Virus record (IMG/VR): IMGVR_UViG_3300032322_002209
Span: 1-37,793 of that record
Source: a virus
DNA length: 37,793 bases
Direction: 5' to 3' (one strand)
The notes under the pieces were generated by a model. The model saw only the letters and a program-made list of their open reading frames with translations. It did no database searches and was not told the DNA's origin. Each line of letters opens with the position of its first letter. Positions within the stretch are counted from its first letter, which is position 1. Both the position numbers and the translations under genes were made by a program. This document shows, piece by piece, positions 1,666-11,780 of the stretch.

Positions 1666-3039
1666 TCAAGCGGCGGCGAGTTCCGCCGGCAGGGTGATCA
1701 CGGGGATCCGGGTCGGCAGGCCGTCACGTCGCATCACCGGGCCTTCGATTTCGACGAGGACCAGCCGAGTGAGCCAGTAGAGGGATGCCGCGAGGACAGC
1801 GAGATTGTGAGTGAAGCTGTTGTCGCAGGCCTGCCGCCACAGCCCGTCTTCGAGGAAGAGACATGCGCCTCGGCAGAGCTGCAGCACCGGACAATTCCGG
1901 CATTCCTCGCGTGTCGACCAGTGATGTGCCGTCGTCAAACGAATGTCTTCAAACGCCTCGATCGAACCGATCCGGTGCTTGGTGGCAGCACTCGTGTTCT
2001 GGCACGTCAGGACGTTGCCTTTTAGATCGACCGCAAGATCACCAGGTCGATCCATCCCGCACTTCTGGCCGAGCGTCGATGCCGGTCGCGCCTGTGCCAG
2101 CGAGCGAAAGAACTCCTCGATCTTTCCTCGAAGGGTCGATACCGGCATGCTCTCGCCACGCACAGCTTCCCAGAAGACCGCTTCGAGGTAAGTGCGATGT
2201 TCTTCTTGCGTCTGCGGCGACAGGGTGATCCCGCCCTGATCGTAGGGCAGCAGGATTTCCTCGGTGGTGAGCTGCAGATCATCCACGGGAACGCCCAGTC
2301 GCTCGGCGATGTGTCGACGCACCGCTGCCAAGGACGTGTTGTGCTTGTGCAAAACGCAGTTGAAGCCGATACGGCCCCAGGGGCGCAGACGATCGTAGAG
2401 CTTGCGGATCGCTGCCCGCTGGGACGGGTCTTCCAGCGGATCTGGTCCCCGGAAGTGCATCGCCGGCCCATCATGGCTGATCCCAACGCTGAACCCGAGC
2501 GCGTCGAGTAGCTCGATCCTGTCGCCGTCGATCAGGGCGCCATTGGTAATGATGTTGAAGCGCGCCTTCGGATAGGCCGATCGCAGCGCGGATGCGAGCA
2601 CGCGAAAGGTCTTCCAGTAGACCAGCGGTTCACCGCCCCAGAACTCGATCCGGACGCCGCTGCCGTCTCCCTTCTCACCCCCGTCGAACCACTTCGGCAG
2701 CGACGCAAGGAAGCGATGAACGTCGCCGATGTCTCCCTGGATTTCGTGGGGCTGGGATGCCTGGTTGCAGTAGGTGCAGGCATAGTTGCACTTCAGCCCC
2801 ATTTGGATCTTGAGGAGCCGCGTGTCTCTGGACTTGCGGCCCGGGTTCCGAGGGGAGATCGGCTCCGCCACGCTCCACTGCCGTGGGACAGAGTCGTACT
2901 CCATCCCGACCAGACGGATATCGACCCGCTCACCCGTGTCTTCCCACAGGAGTTCAGACCGATGCGGTCGGTAGAGCAACGCGCGCGCATATCCGTTCCG
3001 GCCCGCCATCGCGAGCCGGTATTCCAGATTATCGGTCAT
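1666..3039 (-). CDS. Radical SAM/SPASM peptide- or protein-modifying enzyme
   Basis: A 457-residue protein with the radical SAM signature CxxxCxxC (C84, C88, C91; LKCNYACTYC), the GGEP motif at 135-138, and a complete SPASM pattern: C327, C346 (GNVLTC), C380, C383, C389, C393, C405. The spacing C-x2-C-x5-C-x3-C matches the SPASM domain of anSME and RiPP maturases, which holds two auxiliary [4Fe-4S] clusters. Known relatives install thioether or C-C crosslinks, or oxidise side chains, in ribosomal peptides or proteins. The first 75 residues are not recognised; a RiPP recognition element cannot be excluded by eye. It starts 9 bases after the 2OG-oxygenase-like gene and lies in one transcript with the tail fibre whose end is an Asn/Cys repeat; that fibre is the obvious candidate substrate. 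The function as an enzyme is secure; the substrate is inferred. Confidence 0.92.
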   Translation of the reverse strand: MTDNLEYRLAMAGRNGYARALLYRPHRSELLWEDTGERVDIRLVGMEYDSVPRQWSVAEPISPRNPGRKSRDTRLLKIQMGLKCNYACTYCNQASQPHEIQGDIGDVHRFLASLPKWFDGGEKGDGSGVRIEFWGGEPLVYWKTFRVLASALRSAYPKARFNIITNGALIDGDRIELLDALGFSVGISHDGPAMHFRGPDPLEDPSQRAAIRKLYDRLRPWGRIGFNCVLHKHNTSLAAVRRHIAERLGVPVDDLQLTTEEILLPYDQGGITLSPQTQEEHRTYLEAVFWEAVRGESMPVSTLRGKIEEFFRSLAQARPASTLGQKCGMDRPGDLAVDLKGNVLTCQNTSAATKHRIGSIEAFEDIRLTTAHHWSTREECRNCPVLQLCRGACLFLEDGLWRQACDNSFTHNLAVLAASLYWLTRLVLVEIEGPVMRRDGLPTRIPVITLPAELAAA

Positions 3040-3048
3040 TGAGGTTCT

Positions 3049-3681
3049 CTAAAGTTGGGTGTAATGGCGCGCCGGATCAATGACGCGAATGTTGGTCACG
3101 AGAGCGACGGTGTCCCGGGCCCCAAGATTGACTTCACTCGTATGGAAGATGTGCGCTGGGTGAATGACGAGCAGCCCGGGCATTGGACGTATTGCATGCA
3201 GCATGGTGTGATTGAGAAAGCGGGAGCGTGCTGCAATCGGATCAATTAAGTGGAGCCGGTTTCCAGCGGGCTGTTGATGGCGGTCGCTACCATCGTCGGT
3301 TTGCACCAAGGCGAGCCAGAGGACGGCGACATAATCGACGCTGCGGTGGTTGTGCGGTTTGGCATATTCTCCCGGCCCAAATCGGCGGAGCGCGCAGACA
3401 GCTTCATAATCTATGTCTTCCGTGAACCCCTCCGCCTTGGCTAAACGCCGCATGCGATCACTGAGGATTGCCTTAAACGCAACTGCATTCGCGCGATCAT
3501 CTTTTAAAAGATTGTAGCTGACCTCAGGACCGGGGCGCATGGCGGCAGGTTTATGAGCATGCGGATGAGTAGCCTCATATTCGTCTCCAATTGAAATCAG
3601 GCCCTCGATTGTTTGGGGTGACAGGGCGCCTGTCAAATTCTCCACCCAGATATTGGTCGGCCAAAGAGTGAGGACGCTCAT
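3049..3681 (-). CDS. 2OG-Fe(II) oxygenase-like protein (putative TIGR02466-type)
   Basis: The ATG at 3681 overlaps the stop of the upstream gene in an ATGA junction and gives 210 residues; a TTG 36 bases further up is less likely. The second half has the pattern of a double-stranded beta-helix oxygenase: KPHNHRSVDYVAVLWLAL (H110, H112), GNRLHLIDP (141-148), PGLLVIHPAHIFH with H180, and R189 in GARDTVALVTNIR, a likely 2-oxoglutarate anchor. This order resembles the phage-associated TIGR02466 family as I remember it. Such enzymes hydroxylate side chains using Fe(II), O2 and 2-oxoglutarate. The usual H-x-D/E ligand pair reads H-x-H here, so activity needs care. The neighbours are the Asn/Cys-tailed fibre and the radical SAM enzyme; hydroxylation of Asn or Asp in that tail is an inference. 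Confidence 0.7.
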   Translation of the reverse strand: MSVLTLWPTNIWVENLTGALSPQTIEGLISIGDEYEATHPHAHKPAAMRPGPEVSYNLLKDDRANAVAFKAILSDRMRRLAKAEGFTEDIDYEAVCALRRFGPGEYAKPHNHRSVDYVAVLWLALVQTDDGSDRHQQPAGNRLHLIDPIAARSRFLNHTMLHAIRPMPGLLVIHPAHIFHTSEVNLGARDTVALVTNIRVIDPARHYTQL

Positions 3682-4487
3682 GTGATCACGATTTTCTTTT
3701 GCGAAATACCGGGCCAAAACTTGTATCCAGTCTTGATCACGATCTCGTCGCCGGTCTCCAGGCCACGTGTGTCGAGAAGAATACGTTGGCCGCTTTTGGC
3801 GCGAGACCTATTCAATATCCCCGCACTGGCGTCGATGTAAATTTCTCCGCCACTTTGACCGGTTGCTGAAATTTCAACGAGTGTGTCTGGTGCTGCCTTT
3901 TCGGGTCCATTTATTTCTATTACCAGCCATGTTTCTAGAAACATCTTGAGCGATTCCAGAGCTGGCGGGACAAAAGACTTTTTATCGACGACCAACCTAT
4001 GACTTGTTTTGTTGTTCAAAGGTGTCTCAGGATCATTCTCTACATCATGAAAGATCAGAATTGCGTCTTCGACAGCACAGCCCCGTGACGGCGTCAAAAC
4101 ATAGAGAAATGAAGTCGCATCAAGTCGCTGCCGCAAAACCCACGAAGGTGAGGCCGCGTTGTGTCGTCCTTTGGTGTTTAGAGTGTCCTTCAGCGACGGA
4201 CCCGTTTCCATGACCGACGTGTAAGAGCGATCGGACGCTATTCGCTCAGAACAGGAAAATCGTGTCGTCTCATGCCAGATCAGATCATCTGGAAACTTCG
4301 GGCTCCAGCAAAGAGCAACACAGCCATGATCCTCGCCATAGGCTTTGATCACTTTAGCCAAATCGTAACTGCGCGAAATTCTTTTATCTTTATTGGGCCA
4401 TGAGACTTCGACATTTAGTATTCCCGCCGACAGGTTAACCATACTGTTTGCAGGCATGAGCTTTCGCCCAATCCGAAATATTTTCAT
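3678..4487 (-). CDS. Unrecognised 269-residue protein between tail fibre and oxygenase
   Basis: I do not recognise a family. The ATG at 4487 lies 12 bases after the fibre stop and the gene ends in an ATGA overlap with the oxygenase-like gene, so it belongs to the same transcript. The N-terminal half (to about residue 190) is soluble, mixed alpha/beta. The last 75 residues (VEISATGQSGGEIYIDAS... to KKIVIT) alternate hydrophobic residues as in an Ig-like or beta-sandwich domain. There is no signal peptide or membrane segment. The DNA is visibly AT-richer than the tail genes around it, with AT-rich codons, suggesting recent acquisition with the fibre end. It might be a fibre chaperone, an extra fibre-tip subunit or a partner of the modifying enzymes. 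Confidence 0.8.
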   Translation of the reverse strand: MKIFRIGRKLMPANSMVNLSAGILNVEVSWPNKDKRISRSYDLAKVIKAYGEDHGCVALCWSPKFPDDLIWHETTRFSCSERIASDRSYTSVMETGPSLKDTLNTKGRHNAASPSWVLRQRLDATSFLYVLTPSRGCAVEDAILIFHDVENDPETPLNNKTSHRLVVDKKSFVPPALESLKMFLETWLVIEINGPEKAAPDTLVEISATGQSGGEIYIDASAGILNRSRAKSGQRILLDTRGLETGDEIVIKTGYKFWPGISQKKIVIT

Positions 4488-4499
4488 AGGGAGCCCCGA

Positions 4500-5555
4500 T
4501 CAGCAATTGCAGTTACAATTACAGTCACAGTTGCAGTTGCAGTTCGAATAGCAGTTGAAGCCACCGCAATTGCAGTTGTTGAAGTTCCTTCGATACTCGC
4601 CGCCGCCGATTTCATCCGCAGCGAGATTGTATCCGGCATAGACGAACCCGACGGATACCGGCTGGTAGGTGACGCTGGAGCCGCCCGCGAAATCAAAGCC
4701 GCTCGGATTGGCTGGACCGAAGCCCAAGCCCCATGTCCACCAATTTCCATTAGGTGGGGTCCATTGCGTGTTACCTAAACAATTACCGTTGGGAATGTAT
4801 CCCGAGCAATTATTCACTCGGTCATCGTAGTACTGGTTTGATCTGTTGAGCTCGCCGATATCTGAACCATCAGCAATTTTGAAGCCCGTTGATCTCGCGC
4901 TGTCTCCTGTTGCCCCTGATCGCACTGAGCCAGTCGAGACCAGTCCGGGCGCCGTCAAAGCCCCAGTCATCGTATCGCCCGACTTGGCGACACGGCTTCC
5001 GAGATCAACTCCGGCACGAATGTCGGTAATAGTCTGGCTTGCAAGATCACTTGTTGTGATCGTGCCATCCGCAATTTTTGCGCTAGTGATAGCGCCGTCG
5101 GCGACCTTGGCCGTCGTTACCTGCGCATCAGCGATCTTGGCCGTGGTGACCTGTGCGTCGCCGATCTTTGCCGTCGTGACGGCGCCGTCCTGGACCTTGG
5201 CGGTCTGGACGGCGGCATTATCGATATCGGAAGCCGCGACCGTGTTTTTGACGGCAAGTCCCGCCAAGCCAAGATTGCTGCGGGCTGTCGCGACGTCTGT
5301 CGCATTCGTGCCGCCCTGTGAGATCGGAACAGGAACACCGAGCGGTATGCGTGTCCATGTGACGGGCGAGGCAATGGTCAGCTGGTAGAGCTGGCTCAGA
5401 TCGGTCCGAAAGCAGAGCATCCCAACGACCAGATTTGTGCTGGGAAAGGTCGTGCCGGAAAAAGCCGAGCGGATCGCCTCGTCACGATCAAGGATATCCT
5501 GCCGGCTATCTCGGACCGCCTTGGTCGCTGGGATATCGGGATAGGTTTGGGCCAT
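4500..5555 (-). CDS. Tail fibre with a C-terminal Asn/Cys-repeat tip
   Basis: A 351-residue fibre. Residues 1-80 look like an attachment domain. Residues 111-170 are six 10-residue repeats (type VTTAKIADAQ), usual for fibre shafts, and GDTMTGALTAPG (193-204) is a widespread fibre motif. The distal part (about 238-325) is Asn/Gly/Trp/Tyr-rich with C250 and C259. Residues 326-351 form an extraordinary tip: ten cysteines (328, 330, 335, 339, 341, 343, 345, 347, 349, 351) almost strictly alternating with Asn (one Asp), ending in Cys at the stop. Outside this tip and C250/C259 only C48 is cysteine. The start has a GAGG ribosome site. The next three genes in the transcript are an unknown protein, an oxygenase-like protein and a radical SAM/SPASM enzyme, so the tip is likely modified after translation. 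Host-receptor binding is the expected role. Confidence 0.88.
   Translation of the reverse strand: MAQTYPDIPATKAVRDSRQDILDRDEAIRSAFSGTTFPSTNLVVGMLCFRTDLSQLYQLTIASPVTWTRIPLGVPVPISQGGTNATDVATARSNLGLAGLAVKNTVAASDIDNAAVQTAKVQDGAVTTAKIGDAQVTTAKIADAQVTTAKVADGAITSAKIADGTITTSDLASQTITDIRAGVDLGSRVAKSGDTMTGALTAPGLVSTGSVRSGATGDSARSTGFKIADGSDIGELNRSNQYYDDRVNNCSGYIPNGNCLGNTQWTPPNGNWWTWGLGFGPANPSGFDFAGGSSVTYQPVSVGFVYAGYNLAADEIGGGEYRRNFNNCNCGGFNCYSNCNCNCDCNCNCNC
4503..4580 (-). other. Asn/Cys dipeptide-repeat tail, candidate substrate of the neighbouring maturases
   Basis: These 26 codons encode the last residues of the fibre, including the run NCNCNCDCNCNCNC. Both Cys codons (TGC and TGT) and both Asn codons (AAC and AAT) are mixed, and one codon is GAC (Asp), so the pattern is kept at protein level and is not a fresh hexamer expansion. 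Ten free thiols on a virion surface would be unstable, which favours crosslinking, metal binding or modification. The first two explanations need no enzyme; the third fits the gene context. Confidence 0.85.
5046..5225 (-). repeat. Six tandem 30-bp repeats in the fibre shaft
   Basis: The DNA encodes six consecutive 10-residue units (residues 111-170): IDNAAVQTAK, VQDGAVTTAK, IGDAQVTTAK, IADAQVTTAK, VADGAITSAK, IADGTITTSD. The same unit type occurs in many phage tail fibres, where it forms trimeric shaft segments. The repeat number can change by recombination and alter fibre length. Confidence 0.9.
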
Positions 5556-6751: not shown

Positions 6752-7243
6752 TCAGCTCATCGTGAAGGTAAAGCGCTGCGTCAGCGTATCGTCGGCGCCC
6801 TTATTGATGACCGCGAAAACGACGCGATCCAGCATGGTGCCGGCACTGGCGGCATTGAACACGCCAGCCTCAGTGATGGCGCCTGTTGCCTCACCCGCAT
6901 TGAAGGTGGCCTCGAACTGAAACACCTTGGTGCCCGCCGTATGGCTGAAGGTCGCTGCCTTGCGCGCGAGCTCGGTCACCAGGGCGGTGTTTGCCGCAGC
7001 GGCTGCCGTCGTGCCTGTGCCCACCGCGATATGGCTCATCACGCCAGGGCGCCCGGTGGAAAGACCGACCGACTGCGCGATGAAGCTAAAGCCCGCATTG
7101 ACGATGAGGTTGTCTTTGACCCGGACGATGACGGAGCCGTCGGGCTTGGTGAGCCGTGCCTCCAGGCGTCCATGCAGGCAAAAGCCGTCCGTTCCGGCTT
7201 TCCGGCCCAGACGGGCCAGAAGCTCGGCAAAGCCGATCTTCAT
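6752..7243 (-). CDS. Small tail structural protein
   Basis: A 163-residue soluble protein. The ATG at 7243 has a strong ribosome site (AGGAGA, 6 bases away) and the gene starts 9 bases after the gpJ-like stop, so it is co-transcribed. The sequence (VKDNLIVNAGFSFIAQSVG..., MSHIAVGTGTTAAAAANTAL, GEATGAITEAGVFNAA) matches a type I know from proteobacterial prophages, where similar small beta-rich proteins sit beside tail fibres and are annotated only as phage or tail proteins. In them the middle block (AVGTGTT...EAGVFNA) is the most constant part. A structural role at the tail tip or in fibre attachment is inferred from position. No enzyme motif is seen. Confidence 0.75.
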   Translation of the reverse strand: MKIGFAELLARLGRKAGTDGFCLHGRLEARLTKPDGSVIVRVKDNLIVNAGFSFIAQSVGLSTGRPGVMSHIAVGTGTTAAAAANTALVTELARKAATFSHTAGTKVFQFEATFNAGEATGAITEAGVFNAASAGTMLDRVVFAVINKGADDTLTQRFTFTMS

Positions 7244-7252
7244 GATGTTCTC

Positions 7253-10200
7253 CTATGCGGGGTGAAGCTGCGCGCCGGTAAAGGCGCCAAGCGGTGCGAG
7301 CGGCGCCGCACCTGATGCGATAAGCCCGGTCTGGGCCGAGGCGACAAAGAGCCTGCGCGTTGTCGGTGTCTGGCAGATGCCGAAGGTGATGATGTCGCCC
7401 GAGCGGCGGAGCAGCGCGGCGGTCACGCACTGACCGTGATCATCCTCCAGCGCAAAGGCGCTATCCTCGGGCGACCAGATCAGCCGAAGCGTGCCGGCAG
7501 TGCCAGTCAGCGCGAGATAGACGGTCGGCTCGTCAAGGATCTGGTCAAGCCGGACATCGAAGGTGGTCGAGAATTCCGAGGGGATGGCGATCGACCAGCC
7601 AGCCTTGGTCCCACCGCCAACCTTTAGGCCCTGATCAAAGCGCGCAGGTGCATAGGTAAGGTTCTGTGCCTGCGCTGGGCTCTGCCCCCGCATGCCTGTT
7701 AGGGCGCCTGCCAGCCGAAAGCCTTCAATCAGATCATTGGCAAGGGGCGCCTCGACCGCGATCTGGCTGCGGAGCGTCGCGCCGTCCACATCGCCAAGTG
7801 GCAACCAAGCAGAGGAGGCCTCCGGATCCTGCCAGGCGAAGGCCGCAGTGTCCCAGATCAGATCGTCAGCTGGCGTTGTGCCGACATGCGCCTCGATCCA
7901 GTTTCGCGCCCGCCACATCCGCCCGAAGGCGACCGGAAAGACATATTCGCCGCGCGCGATGGTCGTTGAGCCGCTGCGCGCAAGGGCGAGCAGATTACCG
8001 CCGATGATCTCCATGCCCTGCGTGACGCCTGGCCATCCCAGCGCCTGGCGATCGCTGACCAGCACGGCGTTGCGTCCGGTGAGCGGCGCCAGCCTTGTCG
8101 TCGCATAGGCGGCGCCCTCGCTATAGAGCCCAGCTGAGGAGATGGCCTTGAGCCAGAAGGTCTCGTCCGTTGCTTCGCGGATGGGCCAAAGGGCAACAAG
8201 GTGGTTGCCGGCGGCCCGTCCAACGAAGCGTCCCGTTCCCCAGGTCGTTCCTGCGCGAAGCTCGTATTCGATGCCCGTTCCTTCGACCGGCTCCCAGGAG
8301 GCCCGGACATGGTCACCCTGCGGGATGACATCGAACGTCGCCACATTGTCGGGTGGTGCGACGGCCGCCGCGACGCTACTGGCCGCAGGGCTCACCAGGC
8401 CGATTTCGTCGACGGCCTTGATGTGAAAAAGCCTTTCCCCGGCATCAGCAAGAGCGACAAAGAGCGTCGTGCCGCGATGGCGGGTGGTGACAAGGGTCCC
8501 AGCGTCCCAGGAAGCCCCCATCCGGATTTCGTAGCCGACAAGATCGAGCGCTGAGACTGGCTCCCAGGATAGCTGGACACCGTCTGCTCGCCGTTCCGCG
8601 GCAAAGCCGCCGACATCTGCCGGTGGCGTGGTGCGTCCCACGACTTGGTGCGCCAGCACCTCCGTCCAGTCGGAGGCGATCCCGTTCCGAGCCACAAAGC
8701 GCAGGCGCAGGTCGTAGCTTTTGCCATCCTCGACCGGTTGAATGGCGACGGTCAGGGTGTCGGCGGGCTGCGTCGGCACCGAGGCCCATGGACCGGTATT
8801 GCCCGTCTCCCGGTAGCGGATTTCGATCCCGTCCGGCGCATTGGTGGCATCGGAGCCAGGGGGGTAGAGGCGGATCAGAATGCGCGGCGCTGACCTGCCA
8901 TCGGGCCCGCGCACCAGCACGGTCTCATCGGAAATGGTCGTCCAAACGACCGGCGCCGACGGACGCACCAGTTCGATCTGCGCCGGGCGTGTGATGTAGC
9001 TGTCGAATGCCGGGATTGGACCGGTATCGGCTTGGTGAACGCCGGGTGCGGCTGGGATCAGGATCAGCTTGGCGGAGAGGTTCGGGCCCGGTTCGACCCC
9101 TTTGACCAGCATGGGCGCCGCCTCGCGCCCCGCTTCGCCGAACTGAAAGAGATCGCCGGGTTCAGGCGCCAATGTCTCGGGAAGGTGCGTGGCCAGCGTG
9201 ACGCTCCGCGCACCACCTGGCGCCGTGACAAGTGGCAGCACCTGGCTTGCCCCGTCCACGCGCCGCACCCGCAGCGCATAATTCTTGCCGGCCTCCATGG
9301 GCGCGGGTTCATCGAGCAGCAGACCCGTCACCAGCCCTTCGGCAAGGATCCGCGCCTTGATCCTCCCGCTCGCCATACCGACCAGGATCACGTCATGGGC
9401 AAACATGACGAGGTCGCCATCGGTGGCGCGCAGCGCCTCGACATCCTGGCAGACCTCATGGGTCTCTGGCCGAAGGCGACCCACGGCCAGATGGTAACGC
9501 CCCTCGCGCCAAGCCTGTTCGGCGCGCGTGCAGGCCATCATGTCGACGGTCTCAAAGCGCGCAGCATTCTCGGCGCTGTAGCCATCGGCATAGACGATCC
9601 GCTCATCCTCCTGCCAATCCTTGTCCGGATTGATAAAGCGGACCTTCAGCGCATGCGGCAGGTCAATGAACTGCTTGCGGCCGACATAGTTGAAGGAATT
9701 GCGCGGCGTAATGTGCAGCACCGGCACGCTCTGCAGAATATCACGCACCACGGAGTGCTTGCCGTCGCGAATGCCGTAGCGCGCACGCGCATGGGAGGCG
9801 ATGTCGCGCAGCGCCTCGACGACGGAACCGCCTTCGACGACGCCATCAAAAGTCCATTTCGGCTGCCCATCCTGCGCTTGCGTCTCACAGGCCTCCGCCC
9901 AGGCGCGGATTGCAGTCAGATCGATGCGCTCATCGCCGATCAGCCGCGTGTTGCCGCGCCGGCGCAGCACGTCGCAATAGGCCCAGGCGGGATTACGGGT
10001 CAGTTGCCAGGACCAAGCCGACCCGTTCCACACCTCCAGGTAAGAACTTGCAAGGCAGCTGATCTGCTGCAGCTGGTTGTTGATCTGCTCATAGGCCTTG
10101 AGCCGCAGCGCTACCATGGCAAGGCCCGTCATGGTGACTGGCGCGTCGTCGGTGATGGTGCGCAGCGCCGAGAGCGTGACGGTGTCGATCAGCCGTGGGT

Positions 10201-11374
10201 TGGTGGCATCCGCCGTGGTGCGGCGCAGACGGATTTCGTATTGGCCGATCTCCGGCGTGTCGAAGCGCCCGCCGCGCCGAACCGGGGAGGACGAGGAATC
10301 GACAATCGTAATCTTGCCGGCGGTCTCAAAGCCCGCATCGCCACCGGCTTTCCAAGGAATCGGCAACCAGGATGCGGCGCCAACCGCACGGTATTCTGCG
10401 TCGAATGCGACCGTCGCGTTGGAACGCCCGCCCTGATCGTTGAAAAAGGCGAGCCCCCGATCGAAGGAGAGGTCGAGATTGATCTCTCGCGCATCGGGCC
10501 TCGAGGTGATGGTGCGCCAGCCGCCCGAGGCGGTCAGCGCAATGGAGAGTGCATCCTCCTCTATACGCTGTGTGTAGAGGGTGATCGGCTGGTCGCTTAG
10601 CCAGCCCTCACGGATCTCGACCTCGGCGCCATCAAAGGCCGAGATTGGCGTTGACCCGATCCGGATATCTTCGATCTTGAGGGGGCCATATCCCACCAGC
10701 AAGAGCAGGCGCATGTAGCGCTCATTGCCAATGGTCTCGGTGTAGGGCTTCGCGGCCAGGATCGGGAAAAGCCGCCGCGTGCCATAGACGCGGGGAATTG
10801 GGCCGTAAGGGTTGAGGCGATTGGTCGTCCCCGTGATGGCGTAGGTCGGTGTCGAAAGCCCTGCATCATTGCCGCGCAGGGATGGATTGGGCGTCGGCGC
10901 GATCGCATTGACCAGCAGCGAGCCCACCATGGTGATGGCGCCGGCGATGACGAGCTTGGTGAGCCCCATGGCGGTAAAGACGCCTGCCGCATTGACGGCA
11001 GCAACGTTGACGCCAAAGAGCGCCGCCGTGAGCGCTGGCGCTGCCCAGGCTGCAAAGGCGATGACCGCAATGGCGCCGATGATAGCGAGCGGGTTCTTGC
11101 CTCCACCGCCACCGCCGCCCATGGCGTTGACCCGTACAAAGAGCCGCGCATTGGGCTTGGGGCGAACTCGGGCCCACCAGTCGCGCGGTACCTCCTCGTC
11201 ATCGACAAAGACCTGCAGATAGGGCCAGTAGCGCTGCGGCAGGTCCGAGGCTTCGAGCATCTGCGCAAGGCTGAGGCCGACCGGCGCAAAGCGCTCCTCC
11301 CGCTCGGTGGAAAAGGGGCGCGCGACAAGTGTCCAGCGCAGCTGCGTATCGAACTGCGTGGCATCAAGCGGCAT
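7253..11374 (-). CDS. gpJ-like tail tip / host-specificity protein
   Basis: The ATG at 11374 gives 1373 residues (MPLDATQFDT...); an open extension to 11584 overlaps the NlpC/P60 gene and is rejected. The protein overlaps the peptidase stop by 11 bases. The N-terminal domain is followed by a Gly run and a long Ala-rich hydrophobic region (about 95-158), then tail-hub-like sequence (NPYGPIPRVYGTRRLFP, KIEDIRIGSTPISAFDGAEV) as in the lambda gpJ / putative tail protein family. Fibronectin type III-like repeats lie roughly at 820-1080 (for example GVQLSWEPVSALDLVGYEI). The C-terminal part looks like a jelly-roll or LamG-type domain. The role is to close the tail tube tip and take part in host recognition. 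It carries a motif shared with the downstream tail protein. Confidence 0.9.
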   Translation of the reverse strand: MPLDATQFDTQLRWTLVARPFSTEREERFAPVGLSLAQMLEASDLPQRYWPYLQVFVDDEEVPRDWWARVRPKPNARLFVRVNAMGGGGGGGKNPLAIIGAIAVIAFAAWAAPALTAALFGVNVAAVNAAGVFTAMGLTKLVIAGAITMVGSLLVNAIAPTPNPSLRGNDAGLSTPTYAITGTTNRLNPYGPIPRVYGTRRLFPILAAKPYTETIGNERYMRLLLLVGYGPLKIEDIRIGSTPISAFDGAEVEIREGWLSDQPITLYTQRIEEDALSIALTASGGWRTITSRPDAREINLDLSFDRGLAFFNDQGGRSNATVAFDAEYRAVGAASWLPIPWKAGGDAGFETAGKITIVDSSSSPVRRGGRFDTPEIGQYEIRLRRTTADATNPRLIDTVTLSALRTITDDAPVTMTGLAMVALRLKAYEQINNQLQQISCLASSYLEVWNGSAWSWQLTRNPAWAYCDVLRRRGNTRLIGDERIDLTAIRAWAEACETQAQDGQPKWTFDGVVEGGSVVEALRDIASHARARYGIRDGKHSVVRDILQSVPVLHITPRNSFNYVGRKQFIDLPHALKVRFINPDKDWQEDERIVYADGYSAENAARFETVDMMACTRAEQAWREGRYHLAVGRLRPETHEVCQDVEALRATDGDLVMFAHDVILVGMASGRIKARILAEGLVTGLLLDEPAPMEAGKNYALRVRRVDGASQVLPLVTAPGGARSVTLATHLPETLAPEPGDLFQFGEAGREAAPMLVKGVEPGPNLSAKLILIPAAPGVHQADTGPIPAFDSYITRPAQIELVRPSAPVVWTTISDETVLVRGPDGRSAPRILIRLYPPGSDATNAPDGIEIRYRETGNTGPWASVPTQPADTLTVAIQPVEDGKSYDLRLRFVARNGIASDWTEVLAHQVVGRTTPPADVGGFAAERRADGVQLSWEPVSALDLVGYEIRMGASWDAGTLVTTRHRGTTLFVALADAGERLFHIKAVDEIGLVSPAASSVAAAVAPPDNVATFDVIPQGDHVRASWEPVEGTGIEYELRAGTTWGTGRFVGRAAGNHLVALWPIREATDETFWLKAISSAGLYSEGAAYATTRLAPLTGRNAVLVSDRQALGWPGVTQGMEIIGGNLLALARSGSTTIARGEYVFPVAFGRMWRARNWIEAHVGTTPADDLIWDTAAFAWQDPEASSAWLPLGDVDGATLRSQIAVEAPLANDLIEGFRLAGALTGMRGQSPAQAQNLTYAPARFDQGLKVGGGTKAGWSIAIPSEFSTTFDVRLDQILDEPTVYLALTGTAGTLRLIWSPEDSAFALEDDHGQCVTAALLRRSGDIITFGICQTPTTRRLFVASAQTGLIASGAAPLAPLGAFTGAQLHPA

Positions 11375-11780
11375 GGCGGTAGAACCCAAGGAGGCGCTTT
11401 TCCCAGCGGGAGGCAGTCGTGAACCGTTCGAGGATGCTGTCGCAGTTCTTTTCGATGTGGAGCATGAAGCCGGGCGCCACGACGACGCCGACATGAATGG
11501 GGCGTCCCATGACGCGCAGCAGAACGCCGTCGCCGGGTTGCTCCTCCCCGATGGCGATCGGACGCCATAAGCGGATCCGTTCATCCATCAGCGCGGCAAG
11601 CAGGCTACTGTCCTCGCCGGGTCGGTAGGCAATGCCCTCGTATTGCGGCACGGCGCCACCGAAGCGCTCGTTGATGACGAGCCGCAGCAGCCCATAGCAG
11701 TCGAGCCCGTCCCGATTGCGCCCACCCTCCTTGAAGGGCAGGCCGACATAGGCGGAGACCCAGTCGGGCAATTCCGTCAT
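11364..11780 (-). CDS. NlpC/P60-family tail assembly peptidase
   Basis: A 138-residue NlpC/P60 domain protein. The catalytic Cys is C28 in GLDCYGLLRLV, the catalytic His is H96 in RPIHVGVVV, and H108 (FMLHIE) is the likely third polar residue. Such proteins (lambda gpK-like) sit in the tail tip and cut peptidoglycan peptides during entry or assembly. The ATG at 11780 overlaps the stop of the DUF1833-like gene (TGATG). It ends inside the start of the gpJ-like gene. The order M-like, DUF1833, NlpC/P60, gpJ is standard for alphaproteobacterial siphoviruses and gene transfer agents. Confidence 0.9.
   Translation of the reverse strand: MTELPDWVSAYVGLPFKEGGRNRDGLDCYGLLRLVINERFGGAVPQYEGIAYRPGEDSSLLAALMDERIRLWRPIAIGEEQPGDGVLLRVMGRPIHVGVVVAPGFMLHIEKNCDSILERFTTASRWEKRLLGFYRHAA

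Follow-up and report, generated by a model that had tools for sequence, protein, structure and literature searches.

A tail fibre encoded in a 37,793-base linear virus record from IMG/VR (analysed over its whole length, and called the window here) ends in an Asn/Cys tail that, judged by gene neighbourhood, is almost always accompanied among related fibres by its own putative radical-SAM maturase gene. From this linkage we suggest that a RiPP-like radical SAM/SPASM maturase probably cross-links the Cys tail of the fibre. The relevant features of the window are as follows.

4500..5555, minus strand: tail fibre gene, P0001 (351 aa; tail-fibre-like body followed by a C-terminal Asn/Cys tail)
4503..4580, minus strand: C-terminal Cys-rich tail, residues 326–351 (ten Cys; proposed maturase substrate)
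4503..4541, minus strand: strictly alternating run CNCNCDCNCNCNC, residues 339–351 (seven Cys)
3678..4487, minus strand: P0002, a 269-aa protein (first gene 3' of the fibre, 12 bp gap)
3049..3681, minus strand: 2OG-Fe(II) oxygenase-like protein (PF13759 below cut-off; phrog_81 E 1.4e-10)
1666..3039, minus strand: radical SAM/SPASM enzyme of 457 aa (about 1.5 kb downstream of the fibre; proposed tail maturase)
6752..7243, minus strand: gp80-like tail gene (phrog_5417 E 9.4e-27; an independent anchor, outside the proposed system)
7253-11584: P0005, J-like host-specificity protein (phrog_31)

Residues 326–351 of the fibre ORF (4500-5555, minus-strand translation) read NNCNCGGFNCYSNCNCNCDCNCNCNC and are followed by the stop, placing Cys at 328, 330, 335, 339, 341, 343, 345, 347, 349 and 351. 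An earlier note on this DNA had described a ten-Cys Asn/Cys repeat at 4503-4580 with Cys at every second residue; the ten Cys are real, but only the final seven (residues 339–351) alternate strictly, the first three being irregularly spaced. The mixed Cys and Asn codons and single Asp that it reported are also present in the last 26 codons (TGC 7, TGT 3, AAC 7, AAT 3, GAC 1). When the window was shuffled 300 times in dinucleotide blocks and read in six frames, alternating-Cys runs were mostly of 3 and at most of 5 (once), against 7 in the window itself. Identification of P0001 as a tail fibre relies on its matches to PHROGs tail fiber profiles (best phrog_28766, E 9.5e-16) and on its position 3' of the J-like protein P0005 and two smaller genes. 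A Pfam search of the 351-aa fibre returned no family, and tblastn against named phages gave partial matches only, in 73 records, none covering 80%. The AlphaFold2 fibre model (A4, 20 rows) has a mean pLDDT of 36.1 and was set aside. A close relative lies on a Beijerinckiaceae assembly contig, with an enzyme 78% identical and the 13-residue run identical. Directly 5' of the fibre, P0003 (5567-6748, minus strand) has a weak C-terminal match to an H-type lectin (PF09458, E 0.012, sub-cut-off).

Like C-termini occur in 173 distinct fibre/enzyme instances (L207, probably an out-of-frame match, is kept within these and within the genome count), with runs of 3 to 11 Cys. Asn immediately precedes the first Cys in 164 of the 173 and makes up 493 of the 799 residues between Cys, with Ala at 154 and Asp at 93; Arg and Gln are likewise found there. 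The idea that these tails sit on unrelated fibre bodies was dropped, as single linkage placed 163 pre-tail segments in 7 clusters, 134 of them in one. We compared codons in 82 nearest-neighbour pairs, which are non-independent, using raw differences uncorrected for multiple hits. At Cys positions of the run, 385 codons were identical, 70 differed synonymously and 13 non-synonymously, some of the 13 reflecting one run that stops before its partner. Positions between Cys gave 221 identical, 103 synonymous and 62 non-synonymous (mostly Asn/Ala/Asp swaps), and the 60 codons preceding the run 3180, 1355 and 385. Without selection, single-base changes to a Cys codon would be non-synonymous 8 times for each synonymous one, and the 70 to 13 seen at Cys thus supports selection at the protein level, as the earlier note had proposed; by these counts the Cys tail appears conserved as protein, and the alternating Cys are its most constrained positions. 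The random lengthening and shrinking that the note named as contrary evidence is not seen: run length is the same in 69 of the 82 pairs and off by one in 11.

Searching with the fibre gave 62 relatives. Where a fibre is complete to its end, it nearly always terminates in a Cys run or has such a run ahead of another domain, with the enzyme gene downstream in the majority. Because this search began from the fibre itself, three further anchors were used (the gp80-like tail gene, the enzyme and a DNA pattern), with the same contigs recurring among searches; a J-anchored search, with 21 loci of which many are short or closely related, was left out of the counts. Anchoring on the gp80-like gene, 26 of 80 loci have at least 7 kb downstream, and these comprise 18 that have both tail and enzyme, 8 that have neither and 0 discordant (Fisher 6e-7 with kinship ignored, a nominal value that is too small since loci overlap or are related, for example L385 and L386, which share ORF layout and ends). 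The 8 enzyme-less loci carry fibre-like ORFs that resemble Cys-tailed fibres in their N-termini (best matches at E 1e-12 to 1e-24 or lower) and have different tips, and so the enzyme goes with the tip. At the level of gene content, this shows linkage of the enzyme to the fibre tip rather than to the phage backbone.

Anchoring on the enzyme gave a similar picture. Of 80 viral loci, 57 extend 4 kb or more upstream of the enzyme, and a tail is present in 56 of these (54 C-terminal, 2 before a Hint domain), the sole exception being L092, with an unconvincing tail match only. Bacterial genomes contributed 66 of 80 loci with room, of which 54 have a tail (49 C-terminal, 5 before Hint) and 12 have none. 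A same-strand downstream control found tails at 0/57 viral and 3/66 genome loci; opposite-strand matches (13/57 viral, 12/66 genome) appear to be the same NCNC DNA read in antisense, at least in examples such as L079 and L093. The DNA pattern CNCNCxCxC returned at least 119 stretches, a sample. Among the matches listed, the enzyme accompanies 31 of 32 patterns at the C-terminus of an ORF of at least 80 aa with at least 3 kb downstream, and 2 of 14 with the same room located elsewhere in ORFs, both of these being true tails overlooked by the C-terminus rule. The one C-terminal ORF in this list with room and no enzyme (L349) is 103 aa long and may be spurious, and ten listed pattern tails lacking the enzyme have less than 3 kb downstream. 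Searching whole records for seven of these ten located the enzyme in L264, L302 and L312 and did not find it in L253, L300, L314 or L323; L337 comes from the same contig as L002, an enzyme carrier. The enzyme is present in the L012 and L092 records and was not found in those of the five truncated fibre loci L007, L009, L020, L022 and L023, whose DNA ends at most 2.2 kb past the fibre match.

In 9 of the 173 instances no more than 150 bp separates the enzyme gene from the Cys-tail ORF, which in some cases is shorter than 200 aa. At L309, L294, L297 and L216 the enzyme ORF starts 4–33 bases past the end of a small Cys-rich protein, an arrangement nearer to classic precursor–maturase pairs. L034 has a second complete pair besides its fibre pair (1940-3648), in which a 97-aa ORF ending CNCNCNCDCACACDCACNC overlaps its own radical SAM gene, while L145 and L147 (4912-5504) have three successive short Cys-run C-termini and then one radical SAM gene. 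A second, shorter radical SAM gene directly precedes the main one in L002-L004 (6962-7984; PF04055 E 1.3e-7 in L002), L281 and L322. Of the 12 tail-less genome loci, L194, L199 and L218 adjoin YcaO genes and L160 adjoins a C39-peptidase ABC exporter and an HlyD gene, neighbourhoods like those of RiPP clusters; these relatives (Ramlibacter, Variovorax and others) may represent undescribed ones.

The enzyme itself matches PF04055 (E 5.6e-9; 36.8 bits, above the 29.5 cut-off), the SPASM profile TIGR04085 (37.9 bits, cut-off 27) and, over residues 54–425, phrog_1802 (E 2.4e-53). Its radical SAM CX3CX2C motif (C84, C88 and C91) is invariant in 42 of 42 alignment rows. SPASM domains follow the pattern CX9-15GX4C - CX2CX5CX3C - C, reproduced here by C327, C346, C380, C383, C389, C393 and C405 (all invariant, 42/42 rows) with G341 conserved in at least 90%. 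The AlphaFold2 model (mean pLDDT 93.8) has as its best PDB match 5why (E 5e-12), an entry whose title mentions thioether formation and which we take to be CteB, the SCIFF thioether enzyme. Next come anSMEcpe with bound peptide, ChlB with precursor, TigE, SuiB and SkfB; the epimerase EpeE is also matched, and viperins and other radical SAM enzymes occupy lower ranks. These best matches of the predicted fold point to an enzyme of the peptide/protein-maturase type. Family profiles place it outside the described maturases, with 58.9 bits against a cut-off of 340 for the PapB ranthipeptide maturases (NF047865), 33.2 against 425 for SCIFF maturases (TIGR03974), and NCBIfam similarity spread over thioether, cyclophane and other maturases, all far below cut-off. 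Such scores indicate a separate family whose reaction cannot be read from its membership. The family is already catalogued as phrog_1802, in category 'other', without a substrate or any connection to Cys tails.

How does this arrangement compare with known systems? Ranthipeptide maturases (CteB, PapB, NxxcB) similarly combine radical SAM and SPASM with a Cys-rich substrate gene nearby; CteB is the top fold match and the PapB profile covers enzyme residues 76–394. The differences are that scores fall far below their cut-offs, and that their substrate is a small peptide with a leader, whereas the one proposed here is the C-terminal end of a virion protein of 351 aa, with a product that is a prediction. 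The small precursor and leader off the core that define a RiPP are thus absent, the Cys standing at the extreme C-terminus of the fibre. Sactipeptide synthases, which link the sulphur of Cys to carbon atoms in other residues, are also SPASM enzymes and are represented among the fold matches by SkfB; unlike those systems, the window is without a small precursor peptide and the proposed substrate is structural. The proposed action on a protein is shared with anSME (anSMEcpe being high among the fold matches) and QhpD/PeaB, but their substrates are bacterial enzymes and the profile scores here are again far below cut-off. In our survey of the open-access literature we found no report of phage fibres being modified by radical SAM enzymes, no biochemical study of this enzyme family and no paper pairing a phrog_1802-type enzyme with Cys-tailed fibres; subscription or preprint work may exist.

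The best reading of a conserved Cys tail that recurs with a SPASM enzyme from phage to phage is that it is the substrate of that enzyme, and we hold this very probable. The maturase would join Cys sulphur to a carbon of a nearby Asn, Asp or Ala, so that a flexible tail would become a compact fibre tip held by covalent staples and independent of redox-labile disulphides. If the tail is the substrate, a thioether is the likely bond, favoured by the overlapping Asn-x-x-Cys units of the NCNC tail and by precedent. The radical SAM/SPASM product NxxcA has a C-beta thioether between Cys23 and Asn20, the same Asn-x-x-Cys spacing (PMC8326336), PapB accepts Cys-Xn-Asp with n of 0–6 and makes both in-line and nested links (PMC9413430), and QhpD makes thioethers (PMC11002830). 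The earlier note had offered a metal-binding knob, a disulphide knot and a thioether-crosslinked needle as guesses; the linked radical SAM/SPASM gene puts the thioether cross-link in the lead and weakens the other two. Against the maturase reading stand the enzymes without a recognised tail (12/66 genome loci, and L092 as 1/57 viral loci), and against an Asn-type link the Ala at 154/799 between-Cys positions, which is unable to form it. Receptor contact or envelope entry has about an even chance of being what the product serves, and tip stability is another conceivable function.

Other SPASM chemistry also fits the data. SPASM enzymes catalyse several such reactions, and the enzyme could instead modify the tail by epimerisation, Cys oxidation, C–C or cyclopropyl bond formation or methylation, with Cys as handles or metal ligands. 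We consider this unlikely, though a genuine contender: the fold matches do include a sulfatase maturase, the EpeE epimerase and TigE, the NCBIfam similarity is not confined to thioether enzymes, and Ala, Asp, Arg and Gln also separate the Cys; yet constraint is strongest at the alternating Cys, a thioether synthase heads the structural matches, and a Cys-rich substrate beside a SPASM enzyme is the usual sactipeptide and ranthipeptide layout. Less probable still is an unmodified metal-binding or disulphide knob, the radical SAM gene being a neighbour with another target. CxC motifs can bind metals, and a trimer would gather 30 Cys (an idea of the earlier note), but the concordance of tail and enzyme in 26/26 gp80-anchored loci, and the fact that the enzyme varies according to the tip, not the fibre N-terminus, both speak against this. 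Neutral or recent hexamer expansion, for which the variation from 3 to 11 Cys might be cited, is very improbable in the face of the mixed codons, the synonymous excess at Cys and the equal lengths of most close pairs.

Two genes separate the fibre from its putative cross-linking maturase. P0002 has no match in Pfam, PHROG or NCBIfam; an iterative profile search finds its relatives located between the fibre and maturase genes in 98 of the 173 instances. The gene at 3049..3681 is named oxygenase-like because its PF13759 match is sub-threshold (E 2.3e-4; 21.9 bits against a gathering cut-off of 27) while phrog_81 is matched clearly. Its longest ORF (3049-3717) has a TTG start, and the ATG at 3681 shares an ATGA with the stop codon of P0002. 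Related oxygenases occur in 86 of the 173 instances and together with P0002 in 58; both are therefore common, not required. They are probably accessory to tail maturation, and our guess for the oxygenase-like protein is Asn/Asp hydroxylation. On a broader reading, to which we give even weight for and against, these genes form a mobile 'tip and maturase' cassette, exchangeable between fibres, in which a RiPP-like pathway would staple a virion C-terminus into a polycyclic thioether tip; it would comprise the radical SAM/SPASM enzyme, often with the 2OG-Fe(II) oxygenase and P0002, and extend over viral contigs and bacterial genome assemblies, mostly of Pseudomonadota.

Radical SAM/SPASM maturases have been studied mostly on small peptides and on a handful of enzymes, so a virion protein as substrate would, if true, be a new use. 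Fibre tips, which set phage–host contact, would then carry chemistry invisible in the gene sequence alone, and structure predictions and host-range models would be wrong for such fibres; the cassette reading, if true, would define a class of virus-encoded RiPP chemistry on the particle itself. New candidates for thioether-forming enzymes also come from this family, and two phages and several bacteria in culture offer material for testing them. Among 50,697 phage records, 3 match at least 80% of the enzyme; they represent Achromobacter phages JWF (two records) and 2-1, the gene of the latter being annotated with phrog_1802. Matches in bacterial genomes include Thalassobacter stenotrophicus, Nereida ignava, Limnohabitans and Burkholderia paludis.

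In both Achromobacter phages the fibre tail is followed by a Hint domain (NCNCDCNCNCSC-FPAGT in JWF and NCNCDCNCSC-FPAGT in 2-1), as in 9 of the 173 instances. Hint domains cleave themselves, and the Pfam Hint match of JWF begins at residue 308, the Cys that closes the run; self-cleavage, if it occurs, would leave the tail C-terminal. Hint-like domains also follow the run at L006, L035, L064, L085, L163-L166, L197 and L274, with the Pfam Hint match above cut-off in JWF, below it in L035 and none in L006, and with the other loci recognized by a PAGT/PEGT-type motif. In L022 (4767-5702) and L059 (3321-4391) the run precedes a domain with an ICTxL motif and no convincing Pfam family. Phage phiMa also has an enzyme match, as does Thermus phage Cumys (L065, 3997-6287), in which, near baseplate genes, a radical SAM gene directly follows a His-Asp/Ser/Thr repeat protein (HSDTHGD-like), possibly a parallel repeat–maturase pair with another substrate.
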